Below are positions 1 to 60,268 of a DNA stretch of 64,000 bases, piece after piece. Position 1 is the stretch's first letter. The number at the start of each line of letters is the position of its first letter. This DNA comes from Oceanibacterium hippocampi (GTDB taxonomy: Bacteria; Pseudomonadota; Alphaproteobacteria; Sneathiellales; Sneathiellaceae): assembly GCF_900172325.1 (NCBI RefSeq), contig NZ_FWFR01000003.1:124001-188000 (forward strand), written 5' to 3'. The notes under the pieces were generated by a model, which worked only from the letters and a program-made list of their open reading frames with translations, made no database searches and had not been told where the DNA came from. Made by a program: the position numbers and the translations under genes.

Positions 1-1316
1 TGGCTGCCGTCGGCCAGCAGATCGGCCAGCGCCGCATAGCCCGCAGCAAGCGTTACACGTTCTTCCTTCTTCTGGCTGAGGAACGCCTCGAGTGCCGGGT
101 AATACCGGATCGCCTCATCGACCTTCGGGTCGGTGCCGGCCCGGTAGGCGCCGAGGCGGATCAGCTCGGCCATGTCCTCGTAAGTCGAAAGCAATCCGCG
201 CGCGGCGCGCACGAGATCGTTCTCCTGCTCGTCGTTGCAGCCCGGCATGGTCCGCGAGATCGACTGCAGGATATTGATGGCCGGATAACGGCCACGCTCG
301 GCGATCGCCCGCTGCAGGACGATATGGCCGTCGAGAATGCCGCGCACGGCGTCGGCGATCGGCTCGTTGTGGTCATCGCCCTCGACCAGAACCGCGAACA
401 GTCCGGTGATCGAACCGGCGCCGGTGCCCGGCCCGGCGCGCTCCAGCAGCTTCGGCAATTCGGCGAAAACGGTCGGCGTATACCCCTTGGTGGTCGGCGG
501 TTCGCCGCTCGAGAGCCCGATCTCGCGCTGAGCCATGGCAAAGCGCGTCACCGAATCCATTAGGCAGAGCACGTCCTTCTGGCGATCGCGGAAATATTCC
601 GCCAGCGTGAGTGTCAGGTAAGCCGCCTGGCGGCGCATCAGCGGCGGCTCGTCCGATGTCGAAACGACGACGACACTGCGCGCGAGACCTTCGGGCCCGA
701 GGTCGTCCTCGATGAACTCCTGGACTTCCCGGCCGCGCTCGCCGACCAGCCCGATGATGCTCACATCGGCTTCCGTGTAGCGCGCCAGCATCGACATCAG
801 CACCGACTTGCCGACACCGGAACCGGCGAAGATGCCCATGCGCTGGCCGCGGCAACAGGTGATGAAGGTGTTGAGCGCCTTGACGCCCAGGTCGATCTTG
901 CCGGCGACTCGCTGGCGCGACTGCGGCGGCGGCGGGGCCTGGCGAAGCGCGCAGGCGACCGAGCCGCGGGCCAGCGGCGGCCCCCCGTCGATCGGCTCGC
1001 CCATCGCGTTGACCACTCGGCCGAGCCAGGATTCGTCCGGATAGATGAAGCCGTCCTGGCCTTCGACGATCGCCTTGCAGCCGATCCCGACCCCTTCGAG
1101 CGAGTCGAACGGCATCGCCAGAACGCGGCCGCCGCGGAATCCCACCGCCTCGACTTTCACAGAACGGCCCTCGCGGCCGAGAACGCGCAGCCGGCTGCCG
1201 ATGCTGACCTCGCGCTCGATGCCGGCGATCTCGATCAGCAGTCCCTGTACGGCGGCGACCCGGCCATAAAGCCTGTGGGTGGGAATACGCGCCAGATCGG
1301 CCTTTACGCTTCGCAA
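1..1316 (-). CDS. fliI: Flagellum-specific ATP synthase FliI (partial, C-terminus beyond window)
   Basis: ATPase of the flagellar type III export apparatus, which powers export of rod, hook and filament subunits at the cytoplasmic face of the basal body. The reading frame is open to the left edge and gives about 438 residues, so only the extreme C-terminus should be missing. Visible are a beta-barrel start ([13 protein letters not shown]), the Walker A loop [14 protein letters not shown], the segment [11 protein letters not shown] and the conserved stretch [16 protein letters not shown], which separates FliI from F1-ATPase beta. There is no ATG. I chose the TTG at 1316-1314 because GAGGG lies 6 nt upstream and the protein then starts [11 protein letters not shown] like other FliI. 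It is divergent from ctrA across an intergenic region carrying CtrA motifs, so CtrA control is plausible. Confidence 0.93.
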
Positions 1317-1481
1317 GAATAACCCTCGTGAGATCCGGAAATGGTACGGTGGCGGGACCGCGCGGATATTGCTGACGGGCAACAAGCCGGAGTGTCGCCC
1401 GTCACGCTTAATGTTCGGTAAAACCGCCATCCGAAGCCGCGCACATTCCGCATCAATAATTATTAACGAAGCTGTCTGGTT

Positions 1482-1496
1482 TTAATTGTTTATTAA
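1482..1496. promoter_or_regulatory. CtrA-binding box TTAA-N7-TTAA upstream of ctrA
   Basis: A perfect full CtrA motif: TTAA at 1482-1485, seven bases, TTAA at 1493-1496. It lies 42 bp before the ctrA ATG, about where a -35 element would sit for a start near 1520, and it also faces the divergent fliI. An isolated TTAA half-site lies at 1463-1466 and a degenerate version (TTAA, seven bases, TAAA) at 1408-1422. In Caulobacter, phosphorylated CtrA binds such sites to regulate its own gene and flagellar genes; the assignment here is by motif only. Confidence 0.8.
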
Positions 1497-1537: not shown

Positions 1538-2257
1538 ATGCGCGTTTTATTGATCGAAGACGACAGTGCCATGACCCGCAGCATCGAACTGATGCTGTCG
1601 GCGGAGGGCTTCAGCATCTACGCCACGGATCTCGGCGAGGAAGGTCTGGATCTCGGCAAGTTGTATGACTACGACATCATCATTCTGGATCTCAACCTTC
1701 CGGACATGTCGGGTTACGACGTACTGAAGAAGCTCCGCACGTCGAAGGTTGCGACACCGATTCTGATCCTTTCAGGCATGTCGGAGCCGGACAAGAAGGT
1801 CATGGGTCTCGGCTTCGGCGCCGACGACTACCTGACAAAGCCGTTCAACAAGGATGAACTGGTGGCGCGCATTCGCGCCATCGTGCGCCGCTCGAAAGGG
1901 CACGCACAATCCATCATCAAGACCGGGCGTCTGGCCGTGAATCTCGATTCGAAGTCAGTCGAGGTCGACGGCCAGAGGCTGCACCTGACCGGCAAGGAAT
2001 ACGGGATGCTGGAGCTGTTGAGCCTGCGCAAGGGCACGACGCTCACCAAGGAGATGTTCCTGAACCATCTCTACGGCGGCATGGACGAGCCGGAACTCAA
2101 GATCATCGACGTCTTCGTCTGCAAGCTTCGCAAGAAGCTCGCCCAGGCGACCGAAGGCGACAATTACATCGAGACCGTCTGGGGCCGCGGCTACGTGCTG
2201 CGCGACCCGGAAGAAACCCCCGACACTGCCGGGAAGAGGCGCGCCGCGGCGGGCTGA
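1538..2257 (+). CDS. ctrA: Cell-cycle response regulator CtrA
   Basis: OmpR-family DNA-binding response regulator, the master regulator of cell cycle, motility and flagellar genes in alphaproteobacteria. It is 239 aa. The receiver domain is residues 1-120, with the acidic pair at IEDD and phospho-acceptor Asp51 in [11 protein letters not shown], the same number as in Caulobacter CtrA. The winged-helix domain is about 125-225 and includes the CtrA-typical [11 protein letters not shown] and [14 protein letters not shown] chose the ATG at 1538 because GGGAGG precedes it at proper spacing; an in-frame TTG at 1523 is less likely. The perfect CtrA box upstream suggests autoregulation, and chpT, its phosphodonor, lies 0.9 kb away. 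The C-terminus ends AAAG rather than the Ala-Ala known as part of the Caulobacter degron. Confidence 0.96.
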
Positions 2258-3114: not shown

Positions 3115-3780
3115 TCAAGCCGCGCTGAAGGCAAGCTCGACCTGGTCTTCCGACGCGCGCTCGAGCGCAAGCGCGGCGCCGAGTTCGTCGGCAAGCAGGC
3201 GAGCCATGTAATAGGGCACGTCGCGGGGGGTCACGTCGTCGAGCGCGATTCGACCCGCCAGCGCATTCGTCGCGGCCTCGTCGAAAACCACCCTCCCCCG
3301 GCCGCTGACCCGATACTCCCAGTCGTCGCCGCCGGCGCCCCTGACCGCGATGGTGCCGCCGCGTGGCATCGCCGCCAGCGCGATCGACAGCAGCAGCGCC
3401 AGCACCTTGGCGGCATCCTTGGGCAGGTCGTGCGGCGAACCCGGGCCGTCCGGCCAGACAAGCTCGGCTTTCGAGAATTCGAACAGCCCGGCGACCAGCC
3501 GGTGCACGTCGCGCACCGGGATGCGCGTGTCCGGCCCGCCCGAGAAGCCGAAGGCAAGGCGGTAGAACTGCAGCTTGGCGACCGCTTCCCGGGCGCTTAC
3601 CGACAGCAGCTTCACCGCCTCTTCGCGGATCGCGGGCTCCTCCTCGTCCTCGAGAATCTCGATCCCGTTATTGACCGCCCCGACCGGGCTGATCACATCG
3701 TGGCAAAGGCGGGAACACAGCAACGCGGCAAGTTTCGTATCGGGCATCAGGTCGACCAGTCTGTTGTGAGCGGCCATCAT
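3115..3780 (-). CDS. chpT: Histidine phosphotransferase ChpT
   Basis: Phosphotransfer protein that moves phosphate from the hybrid kinase CckA to CtrA and CpdR. It is 221 aa, normal for the family. The phospho-accepting His27 lies in LCSRLCHDVISPVGAVNNG, the diagnostic ChpT helix, and is followed by a degenerate ATPase-like C-terminal domain without an ATP-lid motif. The frame stays open far upstream (to 5502) antisense to the formate dehydrogenase gene, but homology begins only at the Met-Met pair at 3780/3777, so I start there; no good ribosome site is visible. It is divergent from the DUF3553 gene (66 bp apart) and close to ctrA. Confidence 0.92.
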   Translation of the reverse strand: MMAAHNRLVDLMPDTKLAALLCSRLCHDVISPVGAVNNGIEILEDEEEPAIREEAVKLLSVSAREAVAKLQFYRLAFGFSGGPDTRIPVRDVHRLVAGLFEFSKAELVWPDGPGSPHDLPKDAAKVLALLLSIALAAMPRGGTIAVRGAGGDDWEYRVSGRGRVVFDEAATNALAGRIALDDVTPRDVPYYMARLLADELGAALALERASEDQVELAFSAA

Positions 3781-51721: not shown

Positions 51722-52222
51722 ATGACCGCTTCAGCCACCTTGCCGATTGCCGGTGAATCCGTGCGCCCCGAATGGATTGACTACAACGGTCACATGAACG
51801 TGGCCTACTTCGTCCTTGCCTTCGATCACGCACTCGACCAGTTTCTCGATCAGCTCGACATCGGCGATGACTATCGCCGCCGCACCGGCCATTCGACCTA
51901 CATACTGGAAACCCACGTGCACTATGTCCGTGAAGTGCATGAGGGAGCGCCTCTGGCGTTCCGCTTGCAGCTCCTCGATTTCGACGCCAGACGGCTCCAT
52001 TACATGCTGGAAATGCGCCATGCGGACGCGGATTACATTGCCGCGACGTCGGAACAGTTGCTACTGCATGTCGATCAGTCCGGTCCGCGCGCCGCGCCGT
52101 TCCCGCCCCATGCCTACGAGCGGGTCGCCGCCCTCCATGAAATGCACCGCACTTTGCCCTGGCCCGAGCGCGCCGGGACGGTGATCGGCATCCGGCGACG
52201 CATGGCGGCCTCTCATGGGTGA
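51722..52222 (+). CDS. Hot-dog fold thioesterase (4HBT family)
   Basis: 166 aa. The active-site segment EWIDYNGHMNVAYFVLAFDH is the 4-hydroxybenzoyl-CoA/betainyl-CoA thioesterase type, and the beta-sheet core continues HSTYILETHVHYVREVHEG. It hydrolyses a short acyl-CoA; resemblance to the thioesterase domain of carnitine degradation enzymes suggests betainyl-CoA, but no carnitine genes are adjacent. It overlaps the pentapeptide gene by 8 bp. Confidence 0.88.
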   Translation: MTASATLPIAGESVRPEWIDYNGHMNVAYFVLAFDHALDQFLDQLDIGDDYRRRTGHSTYILETHVHYVREVHEGAPLAFRLQLLDFDARRLHYMLEMRHADADYIAATSEQLLLHVDQSGPRAAPFPPHAYERVAALHEMHRTLPWPERAGTVIGIRRRMAASHG

Positions 52223-52799
52223 AATCGTCGCGACAGCCCGCCCGCGGAACTCTCGATCGTCGCGCGGACGCAATCTCCTTGCCGGACTGGCGCTCGGGCT
52301 TGCCTTGCTGCCGGTCCTGTCGCTGCCCGCCAGCGCCGACTGCGCGGACGTTCCGGCGCCCGGCGTCGACTGGCGCCGCTGCCAGTTCTTCGGCAACGAT
52401 TTCTCGGACCGAGATTTCACCGGGGCCAATTTCCAGAGCGCCAGTCTTTCGAATACCAATTTCGAGAATGCGCAGCTGGACGGGCTTGACGGCCGCCGGG
52501 TGCATTTCGTCGCCGCGAAGATGAGCGGGGCGAGCCTCGCCGGCGCCGACCTTCGGGATGCGGACTTCACCAGCGCCGATCTGAGTGGCGCCAGCCTGGC
52601 AAAGGCCGACATGCGGCGCGGCCGCTTCTACGGCACGGTATTCCGCAACGCCGACCTGACCGGCGCGCGCCTCGACAATGCCGACCTGCTCAACGCCGAC
52701 CTGTCCGGCGCGACCTGGATCGACGGCAAGACGGTCTGCGACGAAGGATCGATCGGGCAGTGCAGGTTGAAACGCACCAAGGCGCCGGGTCCCGCCTAG
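52215..52799 (+). CDS. Secreted pentapeptide-repeat protein
   Basis: 194 aa. A basic N-region with RGR precedes a hydrophobic stretch (NLLAGLALGLALLPVLSL) and a cleavage site near ASADCAD. About twenty A(D/N)LxX repeats form a right-handed quadrilateral beta-helix (FTGANFQSASLSNTNFENA, GASLAGADLRDADF). Cysteines at both ends of the mature domain (CADV, WRRCQF, and KTVCDEGSIGQCRL) may make disulfide caps. The function is unknown; periplasmic location argues against a gyrase-protecting role. Its start lies inside the thioesterase gene; it converges with and overlaps the kinase gene by 4 bp. Confidence 0.87.
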   Translation: MGEIVATARPRNSRSSRGRNLLAGLALGLALLPVLSLPASADCADVPAPGVDWRRCQFFGNDFSDRDFTGANFQSASLSNTNFENAQLDGLDGRRVHFVAAKMSGASLAGADLRDADFTSADLSGASLAKADMRRGRFYGTVFRNADLTGARLDNADLLNADLSGATWIDGKTVCDEGSIGQCRLKRTKAPGPA

Positions 52800-54586
52800 G
52801 CGCGATAGTTCGCGACCCTCTGTTCGGCGCGGGGCGCGACGGTATCCAGAGGCATGTCTTCGGGATCGTGAGCGATCACGGGGTCACCTGGGCCGGCAGC
52901 CGCCGCGTCGTGGCTCGAGTCCGTCTTCGGCGGTTTCACGCGGAAGAACAGCGTCGCCTCCGTGCCCGTGCCGACCTCGCTCTCGATCGTCAATCGGCCG
53001 CCATGCAGTTCGATCAGCGAACGGACCAGCGGGACGCCGAGCCCGGTGCCCTCTTCCTTGCGGCTGAAGCCGCTGTCGACCTGCCCGAAGGGCTCGAAGA
53101 CACGTTCCATCTGATCTGCGGCGATACCGATCCCGGTATCGCGGACGCAAACCGCGTATTCCTCGCCAACCGTTTCCGAGGTGACCACGACCTCGCCGCC
53201 CGGCTGGGTGAATTTCACCGCATTGCTGATCAGGTTGACCAGCATCTGCTTCACCGCCCGTGAATCGGCGGTGATCTGCGGCATCGCCGTCGGCATTTCC
53301 AGGCGCAGCTCTATGCCGCCGGATTCTGCATTCTGCGCGAGCAGACGTACCGCGGACTGGGCGATGCGGCGCAGGTCGATGGTTTCCAGGCTCAGTTCGA
53401 ACCGGCCGGCCTCGATCTTCGACAGGTCGAGAATGTCGTTGATGACCTGCAGGAGGTGGCGGCCGCTGTCGGCGATGTCGAGGGAATATTCCTTGTAGCG
53501 CGGGTCGCTGTGGCTGCCGAAGAGCTCGTCCTTGAGTATATCGGAGAAGCCGATGATCGCGTTCAGGGGCGTGCGCAGCTCGTGGCTCATCAGCGCAAGG
53601 AACTCGGACTTCATCCGGTTGGCGCGCTCGGCGACACGCCTGGCCTCGATCGCCTCGGCCTCGCGGGCCTTCAGTTCGCTGATGCTGGTATGCACGCTGA
53701 CGATGCCACCACTGCGGGTGCGCCGGTTGCTCGACTTGAGCCACTCGCCGCTCACGAGCTGCTGCTCGAAGGTCCCGACGGAAAGCGTGCGCAACTGCCG
53801 TCCCTCCGGGAAATAGCCGCGATACTTGGTATTCTTGATGATCGAGCGCCCTTCCTCGTCGAACAGCGCAAAGGCATCGGAACTGGATTCGATGGCGTCG
53901 ACCAGGTTGGCCCTCGCCTCCGCCAGTCGATCGGCGAGGGTGGCGTTGTCCCGCTTGGTCCGGGCATGGTCGAGGAAGGAGGTGAACCCCACCCGGGCAA
54001 AGCTGATCATCGCGACCAGGTACATCGCTGCCATCAGCGCCATGATCAGCGACAGCTGGTCGAAATTGCCGATGAAACGGATGATCAGCGGGGTCAGCGC
54101 CGGCACCGAGAAGAACAGATAGGCGGCCGGAACGATGCTGAGCGCCGGGACCACGCCGGCGACGAGACCGCCGATCACGAAGGCCAGGAAGACCTCGTGA
54201 ACGATCGAGTCGGTGGAAAAGAAGAAGAAGCCCGCCGCCCCCCAGAGGCTGCCCAGGAACAACGCGTAGGCCGCGGACGCGTCGACGACCCGGCGGCTGA
54301 CCGAACGCGGCACCGGCCAGTTCCGCTTGCGATAGGATGCGTAGAACACGAAGGCCGACGGCACGGCCATGATCAGGACCCAGGCCAGGAGCGCCAGATT
54401 GGGCACGATGTCCCAGAGAACCGCGGCAGTCAGCATCGCGGTGGGGACGTTGAACGCGGTCATCACGGGCGCGTACTTGGTCATCTGGACGACCTGGCGT
54501 ACGCGAACCTCGGCTTCCTGCCATTTTTCCTGTGTGCGACCGCCCGCCCATGAATCGGCGAGACGCGGCCAGATCAGGCCCAGCAT
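52796..54586 (-). CDS. Membrane histidine kinase, PleC/DivJ-like
   Basis: 596 aa. About six transmembrane segments (residues 40-205) are followed by a PAS-like segment (about 230-310), a coiled linker, a HisKA domain with His335 in ALMSHELRTPLNAIIGFSDI, and a HATPase domain (about 440-560) with NLISNAVKFTQPG, VRDTGIGIAADQM and GTGLGVPLVRSL. The HisKA continuation (SGRHLLQVINDILDLSKIEAGR) resembles PleC, DivJ and PdhS kinases that act on DivK/PleD. No response regulator is adjacent, as is usual for that group. A perfect CtrA box sits 65 bp upstream of the start, placing it probably in the CtrA regulon. Confidence 0.92.
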   Translation of the reverse strand: MLGLIWPRLADSWAGGRTQEKWQEAEVRVRQVVQMTKYAPVMTAFNVPTAMLTAAVLWDIVPNLALLAWVLIMAVPSAFVFYASYRKRNWPVPRSVSRRVVDASAAYALFLGSLWGAAGFFFFSTDSIVHEVFLAFVIGGLVAGVVPALSIVPAAYLFFSVPALTPLIIRFIGNFDQLSLIMALMAAMYLVAMISFARVGFTSFLDHARTKRDNATLADRLAEARANLVDAIESSSDAFALFDEEGRSIIKNTKYRGYFPEGRQLRTLSVGTFEQQLVSGEWLKSSNRRTRSGGIVSVHTSISELKAREAEAIEARRVAERANRMKSEFLALMSHELRTPLNAIIGFSDILKDELFGSHSDPRYKEYSLDIADSGRHLLQVINDILDLSKIEAGRFELSLETIDLRRIAQSAVRLLAQNAESGGIELRLEMPTAMPQITADSRAVKQMLVNLISNAVKFTQPGGEVVVTSETVGEEYAVCVRDTGIGIAADQMERVFEPFGQVDSGFSRKEEGTGLGVPLVRSLIELHGGRLTIESEVGTGTEATLFFRVKPPKTDSSHDAAAAGPGDPVIAHDPEDMPLDTVAPRAEQRVANYRA

Positions 54587-54650
54587 TATGATATCTCGCC
54601 CTTGAAGCGCTTTTTCCCGCGATCTAGGCGTCGATCCTCGCCGATGGAGG

Positions 54651-54665
54651 TTAAGAGGCCTTTAA
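54651..54665. promoter_or_regulatory. CtrA-binding box TTAA-N7-TTAA upstream of histidine kinase
   Basis: TTAA at 54651-54654 and 54662-54665 with seven bases between. It lies in the 146-bp gap between the kinase start (54586, minus) and the end of the histidine-rich protein gene. It is the only perfect copy I found besides the one upstream of ctrA. Confidence 0.7.
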
Positions 54666-54732
54666 GATCCCCCGCCACCCGACCGCCGGTTGTGCACCCT
54701 GCCCGCGAGATTCAAGGGATAGTACCCGGCAG

Positions 54733-55530
54733 TCAGCCGATCAGGCCGCGCGCCCGAAGCTCGCTGTCCAGCGCCTTGGTCTGGGTCTCGACGGATATCG
54801 GCAGGTCGGAGGTGATCTCGAGCGCGCGGTCCTCGAAGACATCGGCATCGCCGATCCGGACCTTGTGCGCCTCGACCGCGCGATCACGTGCCACCAGCAG
54901 GATCTCGATCTGCGGCCGGAACAGGCGAAGCATGGCGGTCAGCCAGCGGTTGACCGGCCAGGACGGGTTGGCGTGATCGATCACGAAGCGGTCGAGCATC
55001 GCGATGACATCCTCCGCGCGATACCAGTTCTCGCCGGTCACCCAGCGGTTTGTCGTGAACAGCCCGATCGGGAACCCGAACTTGTCCATCGACACGGCGA
55101 TCAGGTGAGACAGCCGTTCGTCCCCTTCGGGCCAGGGTTCAGTGCCCTCGTGCGGCACCGGCGACAGTCCCTTCGGCATACCCTTGACGCGGACGAAGGT
55201 GTGGAAATGGCCGTGCTCCACCTCGCTGCCGCGATGGGCATGGTAATAATACTGGGCATGCGAGTCGCTGTCGTAGATGTCGCCTTCGGGAAAGTGATTC
55301 CACTCGTAGAAGGTGCCCTGCCCCTTGAGCAACTCGCCGACGACGTTGAGGCCACCCTTCCGCAGCACGCGGTAGCACTCGATGATCTCGGCGGCCGCGC
55401 CATGCATGTGCTTGAGCCGGTCGCTGTCGAGCTCCGACAGAAGCTGGCTGATGATTGCTTCGTCGCTTGCCATGGTCTTGGCAAGGTAATCGGTCTTTCC
55501 GCTGTCTGGCAAACCGGCGGCATTCGTCAT
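54733..55530 (-). CDS. Uncharacterised histidine-rich conserved protein (DUF6969-like)
   Basis: 265 aa. I recognise it only tentatively as DUF6969-like. The core is unusually rich in His, Tyr and Trp: GTFYEWNHFPEGDIYD, then QYYYHAHRGSEVEHGHFHTF and RWVTGENWYRAEDV. The H-A-H and E-H-G-H-F-H clusters look like metal ligands. There is no signal peptide. TTAGGAG about 10 nt before the ATG at 55530 supports the start. It lies 13 bp downstream of the SUMF1-domain gene, so the two are an operon. Confidence 0.78.
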   Translation of the reverse strand: MTNAAGLPDSGKTDYLAKTMASDEAIISQLLSELDSDRLKHMHGAAAEIIECYRVLRKGGLNVVGELLKGQGTFYEWNHFPEGDIYDSDSHAQYYYHAHRGSEVEHGHFHTFVRVKGMPKGLSPVPHEGTEPWPEGDERLSHLIAVSMDKFGFPIGLFTTNRWVTGENWYRAEDVIAMLDRFVIDHANPSWPVNRWLTAMLRLFRPQIEILLVARDRAVEAHKVRIGDADVFEDRALEITSDLPISVETQTKALDSELRARGLIG

Positions 55531-55543
55531 GACAATCGCTCTC

Positions 55544-56413
55544 CTAAGGTTCACGGACCAGCCGGAAGCCGATCAGAATATGCTTGATCTGGTCCGGACG
55601 GCCATGCCCGGCCGCCGCGCGGCAGACACCGCAACCCTTGTCGTCCCAGGAACCGCCCTTGACGACATGCCGGTGCGCGCCGGCAGGGGTCGCCGTCCAT
55701 TCGAACACCTGCCCGGCGACGTCAAGCACGCCGTAGGGGCTTGCACCGGCCGGGAAGCTGCCGACCGGCATTGTATCGAACGGCCCGGCATCGTGACTGT
55801 TCAGCCGCGCCGGATCGAAGTCGTTCCCCCAGGGAAAATAGCGCCCGTCGTCGCCTCGCGCCGCCTTTTCCCACTCATCCGCCGTCGGCAATCGCCAGCG
55901 CTGGCCGGTTTCCCGGCTCAGCCAGTTCGCGTAGTCGGTCGCGTCGGCATGACTGACCAGAACGACCGGGTGGTCCTCCCGCCCCATCGGGGGCCGGCCG
56001 TCCCGCCAGGCGAAGCGGCGTGTTCGCGCATAGGGATGGACAAGGCCGTAATCCTGCCAGGTCGCCCGATCGACGTCCGGCGCGGGGTGCCCGGTCGCGG
56101 CGATGTACCGGCCATAGTCCGCGTTGCTGATCGGCGTCGCGGTGATGCGGAATGCCGGGAGCCGCACGGTGCGCCGTTCACCCTCCGATTCGTACCACCG
56201 TTGCTGCCTCGTCACGTCGTGACCGTAGCCCCGTTCGTCCAGCGCATAGGCAATTTCCCGTTCGGCCCGATCCGATCCGACAATGAACGTGCCGCCGGGA
56301 ATGTCGCGAAGCGGCGGTTCCGGGACCGCCGCACGAAGGGGCGCGACCGCGAGCCACAATGCCGCGACGACAAGTCCCGTCCGCACCGACATTGCTTTCG
56401 AAGGGTACCTCAT
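55544..56413 (-). CDS. Secreted SUMF1/formylglycine-generating-enzyme-like protein
   Basis: 289 aa with a signal peptide (cleavage near PLRAAVPE, about residue 29). The FGE-sulfatase fold is clear: GGTFIVGSD, ATPISNADYGRYIAATGH, VVLVSHADATDYANWLS, RLPTADEWEKAARG, PVGSFPAGASPYGVLDVAGQ and HVVKGGSWDD. The cysteine region reads GCGVC (CxxC), unlike the CX4C of the copper-binding formylglycine-generating enzyme, so activity on sulfatases is doubtful. No sulfatase gene is nearby. Start is ATG at 56413; Met at 56392 is an alternative. It is translated just upstream of the histidine-rich protein. Confidence 0.85.
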   Translation of the reverse strand: MRYPSKAMSVRTGLVVAALWLAVAPLRAAVPEPPLRDIPGGTFIVGSDRAEREIAYALDERGYGHDVTRQQRWYESEGERRTVRLPAFRITATPISNADYGRYIAATGHPAPDVDRATWQDYGLVHPYARTRRFAWRDGRPPMGREDHPVVLVSHADATDYANWLSRETGQRWRLPTADEWEKAARGDDGRYFPWGNDFDPARLNSHDAGPFDTMPVGSFPAGASPYGVLDVAGQVFEWTATPAGAHRHVVKGGSWDDKGCGVCRAAAGHGRPDQIKHILIGFRLVREP

Positions 56414-58003: not shown

Positions 58004-60268
58004 ATGATGATCTGGCGGCGTTGGCAGCATTACCTGGTCCCTGCAATCATGCTGGCGTTGGCGCTGGGCGTGCGGCTGGACCAGCCGCAGCTTCTGGTGA
58101 CGCTGCAGAACCGCATTTTCGATACCTACCAGCAGATCAAGCCGCGCTCCTACGAACCGGTGCCGGTGCGGATCGTCGATATCGACGACGAGAGCCTCAA
58201 CGCTCTCGGGCAATGGCCTTGGCCGCGCAAGCAGGTCGCCGATCTCGTCGTTCGGCTGTTCAATGCCGGCGCGGCGACGGTCGTCTTCGATATCGTCTTC
58301 GCCGAGCCGGATCGCACCTCGCCGCGCGAGATCGTCAAGCTCTGGCCCGAGCTTCCGGCCTTCCAGGCGCTGAAGGACGACCTTTCGGGCTTGCCCGACA
58401 ACGACGAGCTGCTGGCCGAGATCATCGCCCAGGCGCCGGTCGTGACCGGCTTCGCGCTGGTCGACGGCAACGTCAACCGCTACCCCCTCGGCACGCCGGA
58501 AAAATGGGGCGTGGCGATCGCGGGCGACGATCCGAAGGCGTTCCTGCCGTCCTATCGCGGCGCCCAGCCGTCGCTGGAGGTGCTGGAAAAGGCGGCAAGC
58601 GGCAACGGCAGCTTCAACATGGTGCCCGACCGGGACAACCTGGTGCGCCGGGTGCCGACTTTCGTCCGCATCGAGGACAGGCTCTATCCGTCCCTCGTGC
58701 TCGAGGCGCTGCGGGTCGCGCAGGGCGCCTCGACCTATATCCTGAAGGGTTCCGGGGCCAATCTGGAGGAATCCTTCGGCGAGCACACGGGCCTCAACCA
58801 CGTCAAGGTGGGCCGGCTCGAGATCCCGACCGACGCGAACGGACAGATGTGGGTCCACTACACCCGACCGGTGCCCGAGCGCAGCGTGCCGGTCTGGAAA
58901 TTCTACGCCGAGGAACTCGGCCGCCCTGACGAGACATTCGACCCGGCCCTGATCGAGGGCAACATCATCTTCATCGGCACCAGCGCGGCGGGCCTCAAGG
59001 ATCTGCGCGCGACGCCGCTGGCCGCGGCGCTGCCCGGCACCGAGGTTCATGCCCAGGCGACCGAGCAGATCCTGCTCGACGACTTTCTCGAACGCCCCGA
59101 CTGGGCCGACGGCGCCGAGCTCCTGTTCATCCTGCTGCTCGGAATCGCGCTGATCGTCGCCCTGCCCTATCTCGGCGCCGCCTGGTGCGCGGTGATCGGC
59201 GCAGCCGGCGCGGCAGGCGGAATCTTCTTCTCCTGGCAAATGTACGATCTCGCCCGGCTGCTGGTCGATCCGGTGGTCCCGGCGCTCTCGGTCCTGCTCG
59301 TCTACCTGGCCAGTTCGCTGCTCAATTTCCTCCGCTCCGAGCGCGAGAAGCGGCAGGTTCGTGGCGCCTTCTCGCAATATCTTTCGCCGGCCCTGGTCGA
59401 GCAGCTCGCCCGCCAGCCGGAACGGCTGCGCCTCGGCGGAGAAACCAAGGAAATGACCTTCCTGTTCTGCGACGTGCGTGGCTTCACCGCCATCTCCGAG
59501 CGGTTCAAGGGCAATCCGCAGGGCCTGACCTTCCTGATCAACCGTCTGCTGACGCCCCTGACCGCGCAGATCCTGCAGCGCGAGGGAACGATCGACAAAT
59601 ACATGGGCGACTGCATCATGGCGTTCTGGAACGCGCCGCTGGACGATGCGGAACATGCCCGGCACGCCTGCGTCTCGGCGCTGGCCATGATGGAGGCGAT
59701 GCGCGTCCTGAACGCAGAGCGCGAGGAGGAGGCAAAGGCCGAGCAGGTGCCCTTCCTTCCTCTCAATGTGGGTATCGGCCTCAATACCGGTGCCTGCGTG
59801 GTCGGCAACATGGGGTCCGACCAGCGTTTCGACTATTCGGTGCTCGGCGACGCGGTCAACCTGGCCTCCCGCCTCGAGGGGCAGAGCAAGAACTACGGCG
59901 TCGATATCGTCGTCGGCGACAGCACCCGGCAACAGGCGTCGGATTTCGCGGTGCTGGAACTGGACCGTATCGCGGTCAAGGGAAAGAGCGAGGCGGAAAC
60001 CATTCACTGTCTGCTCGGCGATTCCGGGCTCGCGGAAAGCGACGCCTTCCGGGCCCATGCCGAGCGGCACGAGGTGTTGCTCCCGACCTACCGCTCGCAG
60101 CAGTGGGCCGATGCCCGGCGCCTGCTGGACGAATGCCGCAAGCTCGATGCCGCCTGCACCGGGAAGCTTGCCGCGCTGTACGACATGTACGAGGCCCGGA
60201 TCGACGATTACGAGAAGAACCCGCCGCCGGCCGACTGGGACGGCGTCTATGTCGCCACCAGCAAATGA
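58004..60268 (+). CDS. CHASE2-domain class III adenylate/guanylate cyclase
   Basis: 754 aa. An N-terminal anchor is followed by the extracytoplasmic CHASE2 sensor (about 25-350; VRIVDIDDESLNALGQWPWPR is its hallmark), then three hydrophobic segments (about 365-435) and a class III cyclase domain (about 480-660). Metal-binding aspartates lie in FLFCDVRGFTAISERF and YMGDCIMAFW; the purine-specific region includes GDAVNLASRLEG. It most likely makes cAMP in response to an envelope signal. No ribosome site is obvious at the ATG pair 58004/58007. It is divergent from the BKACE gene (118 bp). Confidence 0.93.
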   Translation: MMIWRRWQHYLVPAIMLALALGVRLDQPQLLVTLQNRIFDTYQQIKPRSYEPVPVRIVDIDDESLNALGQWPWPRKQVADLVVRLFNAGAATVVFDIVFAEPDRTSPREIVKLWPELPAFQALKDDLSGLPDNDELLAEIIAQAPVVTGFALVDGNVNRYPLGTPEKWGVAIAGDDPKAFLPSYRGAQPSLEVLEKAASGNGSFNMVPDRDNLVRRVPTFVRIEDRLYPSLVLEALRVAQGASTYILKGSGANLEESFGEHTGLNHVKVGRLEIPTDANGQMWVHYTRPVPERSVPVWKFYAEELGRPDETFDPALIEGNIIFIGTSAAGLKDLRATPLAAALPGTEVHAQATEQILLDDFLERPDWADGAELLFILLLGIALIVALPYLGAAWCAVIGAAGAAGGIFFSWQMYDLARLLVDPVVPALSVLLVYLASSLLNFLRSEREKRQVRGAFSQYLSPALVEQLARQPERLRLGGETKEMTFLFCDVRGFTAISERFKGNPQGLTFLINRLLTPLTAQILQREGTIDKYMGDCIMAFWNAPLDDAEHARHACVSALAMMEAMRVLNAEREEEAKAEQVPFLPLNVGIGLNTGACVVGNMGSDQRFDYSVLGDAVNLASRLEGQSKNYGVDIVVGDSTRQQASDFAVLELDRIAVKGKSEAETIHCLLGDSGLAESDAFRAHAERHEVLLPTYRSQQWADARRLLDECRKLDAACTGKLAALYDMYEARIDDYEKNPPPADWDGVYVATSK

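Follow-up and report, generated by a model that had tools for sequence, protein, structure and literature searches.

Feedback of CtrA on itself by way of DivK kinases has been described in Sinorhizobium and predicted elsewhere, and the idea of a loop that joins CtrA, DivK and a sensor kinase is already published (PMC2877005, PMC4433202). According to the parts of these reports available to us, CtrA of Sinorhizobium meliloti directly activates divJ, as established by ChIP-seq, expression analysis and lacZ fusions, and also binds pleC (PMC4433202), and Brilli 2010 predicted CtrA control of divJ, pleC and divK across the alphaproteobacteria (PMC2877005). PdhS2 of Agrobacterium tumefaciens affects motility and attachment, and genetic data indicate that it does so by way of DivK and CtrA (PMC7003649). 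In Hyphomonas, the upper module can play a minor role, which calls for caution with claims about the strength of such loops (PMC7200025). Nothing closer to the pairing of kinase and box described below was found in the literature covered, to which subscription journals contributed little.

A perfect CtrA-type box upstream of an orphan kinase gene

The window, which is the whole 64,000-nucleotide stretch of Oceanibacterium hippocampi DNA analysed here, has perfect TTAA-N7-TTAA sites at two places, 1482-1496 and 54651-54665. In dinucleotide shuffles of the window, the mean was 0.02 perfect sites and none of 100 reached two. The window itself has four sites with at most one mismatch, against 0.63 expected. 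The second site, which an earlier note on this DNA had reported as such, lies on the minus strand (54651..54665), where it reads TTAAAGGCCTCTTAA followed by CC, between the genes for a DUF6969 protein and a sensor kinase. On the strand of the kinase gene its sequence is TTAAAGGCCTCTTAACC, and it therefore also matches the longer TTAA-N7-TTAAC form. Between the box and the kinase ATG at 54586 there are 64 bases, in agreement with the coordinates and the distance given in that note.

The box lies in the 146-bp intergenic region between the two genes (54587..54732, minus strand), in which consensus scans found neither a sigma-70-like hexamer pair nor a terminator. We regard the missing sigma-70 pair as neutral to weakly negative evidence for activation by CtrA. 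The RNA fold of the box region is not unusual (z -0.79). When the 30 perfect boxes of the genome were ranked by flanks and spacer with a leave-one-out matrix, the kinase box came 22nd, in the lower third.

The upstream neighbour, encoding the DUF6969 protein (54733..55554, minus strand), has the same orientation as the kinase gene. Downstream, a pentapeptide-repeat gene (52215-52799) and the kinase gene (52796-54586) are convergent, their stop codons overlapping. Pfam detected no receiver domain in the ten neighbouring genes that were scanned between 48.5 and 60.3 kb. Near the kinase, the gene at 58004-60268 encodes a CHASE2 protein that also has an adenylate/guanylate cyclase domain.

Architecture and class of the kinase

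The gene (52796..54586, minus strand) encodes an orphan sensor histidine kinase of 596 aa, with a HisKA domain at residues 325-394 and a HATPase_c domain at 441-550 (Pfam scores of 73.1 and 96 bits). An AlphaFold model shows six long N-terminal helices (21-56, 63-86, 98-121, 128-149, 153-173 and 177-233), and a simple hydropathy scan gave five segments. Because the model, built from 11 aligned sequences, has a mean pLDDT of 73.3 and a pTM of 0.43, only the helix count and a small PAS-like sheet were taken from it. Alignment and model together point to a shortened PAS-like domain at about 238-301, which is without the middle part found in homologues L084, L092 and L102 and is likewise short in L082; Pfam at a threshold of 0.001 returned no PAS, and no family at all, in residues 1-310. 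The protein is thus predicted to be the multi-membrane histidine kinase that the earlier note took it for, with six transmembrane helices (about 21-233) ahead of HisKA and HATPase_c. The likeness of its HisKA domain to those of the DivK/PleD kinases, claimed in the same place, is also apparent at the sequence level, in a DHp of the DivJ/PleC type and in DivJ as the best profile.

This DHp has the recognition residues of the DivJ/PleC group and the stretch ELFG..Y..Y..DI..SG.HLL, which we take to mark that group, the assignment being made on these residues rather than by comparison with a named Caulobacter DivJ or PleC. As in PdhS-type kinases, the HisKA and HATPase_c core carries a phosphoaccepting histidine (H335) with threonine at H+4 (T339), both invariant in the 11 aligned sequences; the roles of this His and Thr in PleC/DivJ homologues are taken from the accessible part of PMC7003649. 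The best NCBIfam profile for the kinase is that of Caulobacter DivJ (241.5 bits, residues 286-545), and among the 11 of the 38 HisKA kinases of this genome that were scanned with it, only this kinase and the boxed kinase L178 exceeded 240 bits, the next being L123 at 238.6. Narrower identities were rejected: the score is far under the curated cut-off of 1000 for the DivJ equivalog (NF050805, 241.5 bits), the PdhS equivalog (NF041593) gave 218.7 bits over residues 293-548 against a curated cut-off of 2000, and H335 in place of a tyrosine speaks against DivL. A fold search returned generic kinase cores, DivL among them at rank 18.

Positions H+3, +4, +7, +8, +11, +12, +15 and +16 of the DHp read RTNAGFIL. 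The first six are RTNAGF or RTNSGF in nine other kinases of the genome and differ in 22, for 32 kinases compared and six of the 38 left out. Since nine other kinases share these main recognition residues, they do not single out a specificity for DivK. In a kinase-core tree the kinase clusters with five full-length homologues (93/91); as only two of the 20 branches are starred and Caulobacter references are absent, nothing beyond this grouping was taken from the tree.

Enrichment of perfect boxes in the genome

Counts of distinct TTAA-Nk-TTAA sites in the genome (4.83 Mb) are 4, 4, 4, 30, 3, 4, 0 and 1 for k = 4 to 11. The N7 count of 30 is about ten-fold the mean of 2.9 at the other spacings (Poisson P about 1e-20), with the qualification that the variable-gap pattern may give one match per start, so that non-N7 spacings are perhaps slightly under-counted. 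The reversed pattern occurs at 14 sites, and TTAA-N7-TTAAC has 21 matches against 8 for its reversed pattern. From the spacing excess, roughly nine in ten N7 sites would be real and about one in ten due to chance, and a randomly picked N7 site in this genome is therefore probably real. The kinase gene has a perfect box of this kind, in excess of the spacing controls, in its promoter region, and the genome encodes a CtrA ortholog.

Genes at the box sites were called with a simple codon-usage script that takes the first possible start codon of a frame as the start, and were identified by Pfam, NCBIfam and PDB sequence searches. The other perfect box of the window (1482..1496, plus strand) lies in a divergent intergenic region, with ctrA on one side (1538..2257, plus strand; 239 aa from ATG; NF045991 at 419 bits, cut-off 350). 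On the other is a gene for a flagellar/T3SS-type ATPase (1..1430, minus strand, 3' end just beyond the window; ATP-synt_ab and T3SS_ATPase_C in Pfam), which is presumably fliI. Elsewhere in the genome, perfect boxes precede divK followed by pleD, as well as genes for FlgI, a DUF1217 protein, GGDEF, GGDEF-EAL and caspase-domain proteins and a cell-wall hydrolase, and several boxed proteins have no Pfam match. For a DUF2336 protein, the box is 158 bp away within an opposite open frame; for an HD-domain protein (L176), it is inside the first part of the called frame; and some box sites, such as L164, have no convincing target. A sugar transferase gene has two overlapping perfect boxes upstream, offset by 11 bp (L160 3011-3036, C7:18010-18035).

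Each of the 25 family genomes (divK loci L193-L217) has a box with no more than one mismatch in the 500 bp before divK, and two of them have a perfect one. In every one of the 24 relatives GTAA-N7-TTAA occurs at a distance of 121-181 bp, whereas the genome studied here has the perfect form. Because all 24 come from one other genus, the comparison is effectively one of two genera, and within it these boxes speak for control of divK by CtrA in the family.

Sensor kinases behind perfect boxes

The genome has 38 HisKA matches at 1e-5, and in five of these kinases a perfect box lies no more than 300 bp before the predicted start, at distances of 24-229 bp. With 4000-5000 genes and 30-50 boxed genes assumed, the chance of five or more boxed kinases is 2e-6 to 9e-5. 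Seven of the 38 have their starts beyond the DNA read, and for these the site list shows no box in the preceding 5 kb. In addition to the kinase of the window, the boxed set comprises a hybrid kinase with MASE1/CHASE/PAS and a receiver (L111; L273 1-4443, contig C7; box 75 bp before the start), a PAS-kinase-REC-REC-Hpt protein (L112; L163 1502-4024, contig C7; 24 bp), a 456-aa kinase with six hydrophobic segments (L116; 229 bp) and an 831-aa PAS-rich kinase (L120; 76 bp). The set is thus made up of two multi-helix DivJ/PleC-like kinases, one PAS-rich kinase that recalls PleC, and two hybrids. The boxed 456-aa kinase (L178) has orthologues in none of 24 relatives at a strict E of 1e-80, and residues 1-572 of the PAS-rich kinase gave only partial matches of 30-31% in three of the 24 (E 1e-40). 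The boxes of these two genes are consequently without a footprint in the family.

CtrA, DivK, PleD, ChpT and CckA are all present in the genome. A CckA candidate (L133) matches two PDB entries, 5idj (9.9e-65) and 5idm, which is named CckA (2.7e-36), and a ChpT-type HPTransfase domain (PF10090), a component required for closure of a loop, is encoded at 3151..3513 on the minus strand. None of the HisKA matches read was recognised as a DivL bearing the usual tyrosine. One kinase (L121; C16, HisKA near 618158) has Caulobacter DivL as its best PDB match, yet keeps the phosphoaccepting histidine.

Distribution of the kinase and conservation of its box

No ortholog of the kinase was found at E 1e-15 in 24 family relatives, seven of which miss the quality band, through a completeness below 90% or in some other way, and the box accordingly has no footprint there. 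At 1e-15 the sensor half is present in one of 25 genomes of the order, several of them incomplete, and that one is the genome studied here. The upstream DUF6969 gene was found in 19 of the 24 relatives, and the SHE[LI]RTP kinase motif does not occur in these 19 loci (1.5-kb flanks, some shortened by contig ends). Over the class, the sensor half is detected in 70 of 385 genomes at 1e-8. Since a HisKA motif is recognisable in 17 of the 29 sensor-half loci read and absent by pattern in 12, the membrane module is common to different proteins. One protein with the same membrane sensor module in another genome of the class (L097, G206) has a perfect CtrA box 123 bp before its predicted start.

Full-length homologues with 37-40% identity to the kinase (ten aligned) occur in G224 (L082), in G302 (L084) and in the order of G388, where matches in nine of nine genomes cover almost the full sensor profile. 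We read the upstream DNA of nine such distant homologues (L082, L084, L244-L247 and L249-L251). L252, L253 and L248 (seven bases before the start) were left out, and L092, L093, L094 and L102, being the same genes as L244, L245, L247 and L249, were counted once. A perfect box precedes only L249 (784-2547, G388), 70 bp before the start; the other eight have no upstream box even with one mismatch allowed. Retention of the box upstream of orthologues, which would support but does not strictly define membership of the CtrA regulon, is therefore not seen. With no kinase in the 24 relatives and a box in one of nine distant homologues, the wiring looks recent or lineage-specific, and the link to CtrA is, as far as seen, not ancestral to the kinase family. 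A loop, if real, would be local to the lineage, as the box is not conserved with the kinase in most homologues.

A scan of genome contigs gave 80 loci in many phyla, each matching from residue 220 or later, that is, over the PAS-like region and the core. In a plasmid search, none of 123 records matched 80% of the query at a single location; the best was a Tistrella mobilis plasmid without annotation.

Discussion

The box, its genome-wide enrichment, the architecture of the kinase and the presence of CtrA, DivK, PleD, CckA and ChpT can be read directly from the sequence. They lead us to favour, with about even confidence, the reading that a working CtrA box activates an orphan kinase of the membrane DivJ/PleC (PdhS) type, which most likely acts on DivK and/or PleD. 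Control of kinase transcription by CtrA, as the earlier note proposed, is likely and well supported by the N7 enrichment, the position of the box and the other boxed genes. Action of the kinase on DivK/PleD, and through them on CtrA, is plausible. Because the same sites precede ctrA, divK-pleD and several other kinases, a feedback wiring of the known type is likely here.

In this reading, CtrA occupancy, activation, phosphotransfer to DivK/PleD and the sign of the loop are what we infer. CtrA~P would bind 54651-54665 and activate the kinase gene; by analogy with Caulobacter full boxes, whose first base is most often near -35 (PMC4287350), transcription may start near 54627. The kinase would then add phosphate to DivK and/or PleD or remove it, and these would act on CckA-ChpT-CtrA, so that a rise in CtrA would alter the set of kinases by which CtrA is afterwards held back or sustained. 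A net kinase would give a negative loop and a net phosphatase a positive one. Either sign is permitted by the conservation of T339, which allows both activities; in PdhS2, the residue matching T339 is predicted to be important for phosphatase activity (PMC7003649).

An appreciable minority of our confidence goes to the alternative that CtrA does control the kinase, but that the kinase acts on a different, perhaps single-domain, response regulator and is a CtrA output, for example a motility-phase sensor, with no feedback loop. The main alpha-1 recognition residues are common to ten kinases of the genome, a number larger than a single DivK/PleD pair would obviously require, and perfect boxes also precede the genes of two hybrid kinases that contain receiver or Hpt domains themselves. 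Against a separate pathway, none of the ten neighbours scanned is a receiver gene adjoining the kinase, and the kinase and L178 are the best DivJ-profile matches among the 11 kinases scanned.

It seems unlikely that the box at 54651-54665 is a chance match before a gene outside CtrA control. Other spacings do yield 0-4 sites (mean 2.9), so that chance may account for about one N7 site in ten; the spacer here is GC-rich, the flank score is low, and the box is missing in eight of nine homologues. The site is, however, intergenic, lies 64 bp before the start and conforms to the longer TTAAC form, and perfect boxes precede kinases more often than expected. We rate still lower the case in which CtrA binds 54651-54665 as a repressor, so that the kinase would be produced at low CtrA levels. 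Caulobacter half-sites over the -10 element repress, but full palindromic boxes in Caulobacter are mostly near -35 and activating in the available text (PMC4287350), a geometry that the 64 bp to the ATG accommodates.

Should CtrA activate this kinase and the kinase act on DivK and/or PleD, the locus would be a concrete example of rewiring in the conserved CtrA circuit, in which the DivK module stays under feedback, possibly carried by a lineage-restricted sensor kinase. As a more speculative extension, about which we are doubtful, CtrA may govern in this lineage a battery of at least five sensor kinases together with divK-pleD and ctrA, with the kinase of the window as a recent recruit and the independent box of L249 as a sign of repeated recruitment. 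If so, each CtrA pulse would alter which stimuli the cell feeds back into CtrA. The five boxed kinases among 38 suggest that CtrA may, in this group, have the selection of sensors to be produced among its outputs.

The closest counterpart is divJ of S. meliloti, where, as here, a CtrA box precedes the gene of a PleC/DivJ-type kinase and a loop, predicted in our case, passes through DivK. There the target is the conserved divJ, and divK is controlled only indirectly (PMC4433202), whereas here the kinase is lineage-restricted and scores below the DivJ cut-off, and divK-pleD and other kinases are boxed as well. Feedback by CtrA on the DivK module is likewise known from the CtrA-activated divK of Caulobacter crescentus, and a box precedes divK here too; as far as the accessible text of PMC4433202 goes, control of the module in Caulobacter is described on divK only, while the present sequence predicts it for kinases also. 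The kinase core matches Caulobacter DivL (PDB 4q20) at 114.1 bits, but has a phosphoaccepting histidine where DivL has a tyrosine (PMC4211667). PdhS2 of A. tumefaciens is similarly an additional kinase homologous to PleC and DivJ, with conserved H and T (H+4), and no CtrA box on pdhS2 appears in the portion of PMC7003649 available. In cluster C of Brilli 2010 (Magnetospirillum, Rhodospirillum), the available text reports no clear feedback from CtrA to further cell-cycle factors, in contrast to the several boxed genes found here (PMC2877005). Our prediction is of the same type as theirs: the feedback is kept, while the link that carries it shifts among divK, divJ and pleC (PMC2877005).
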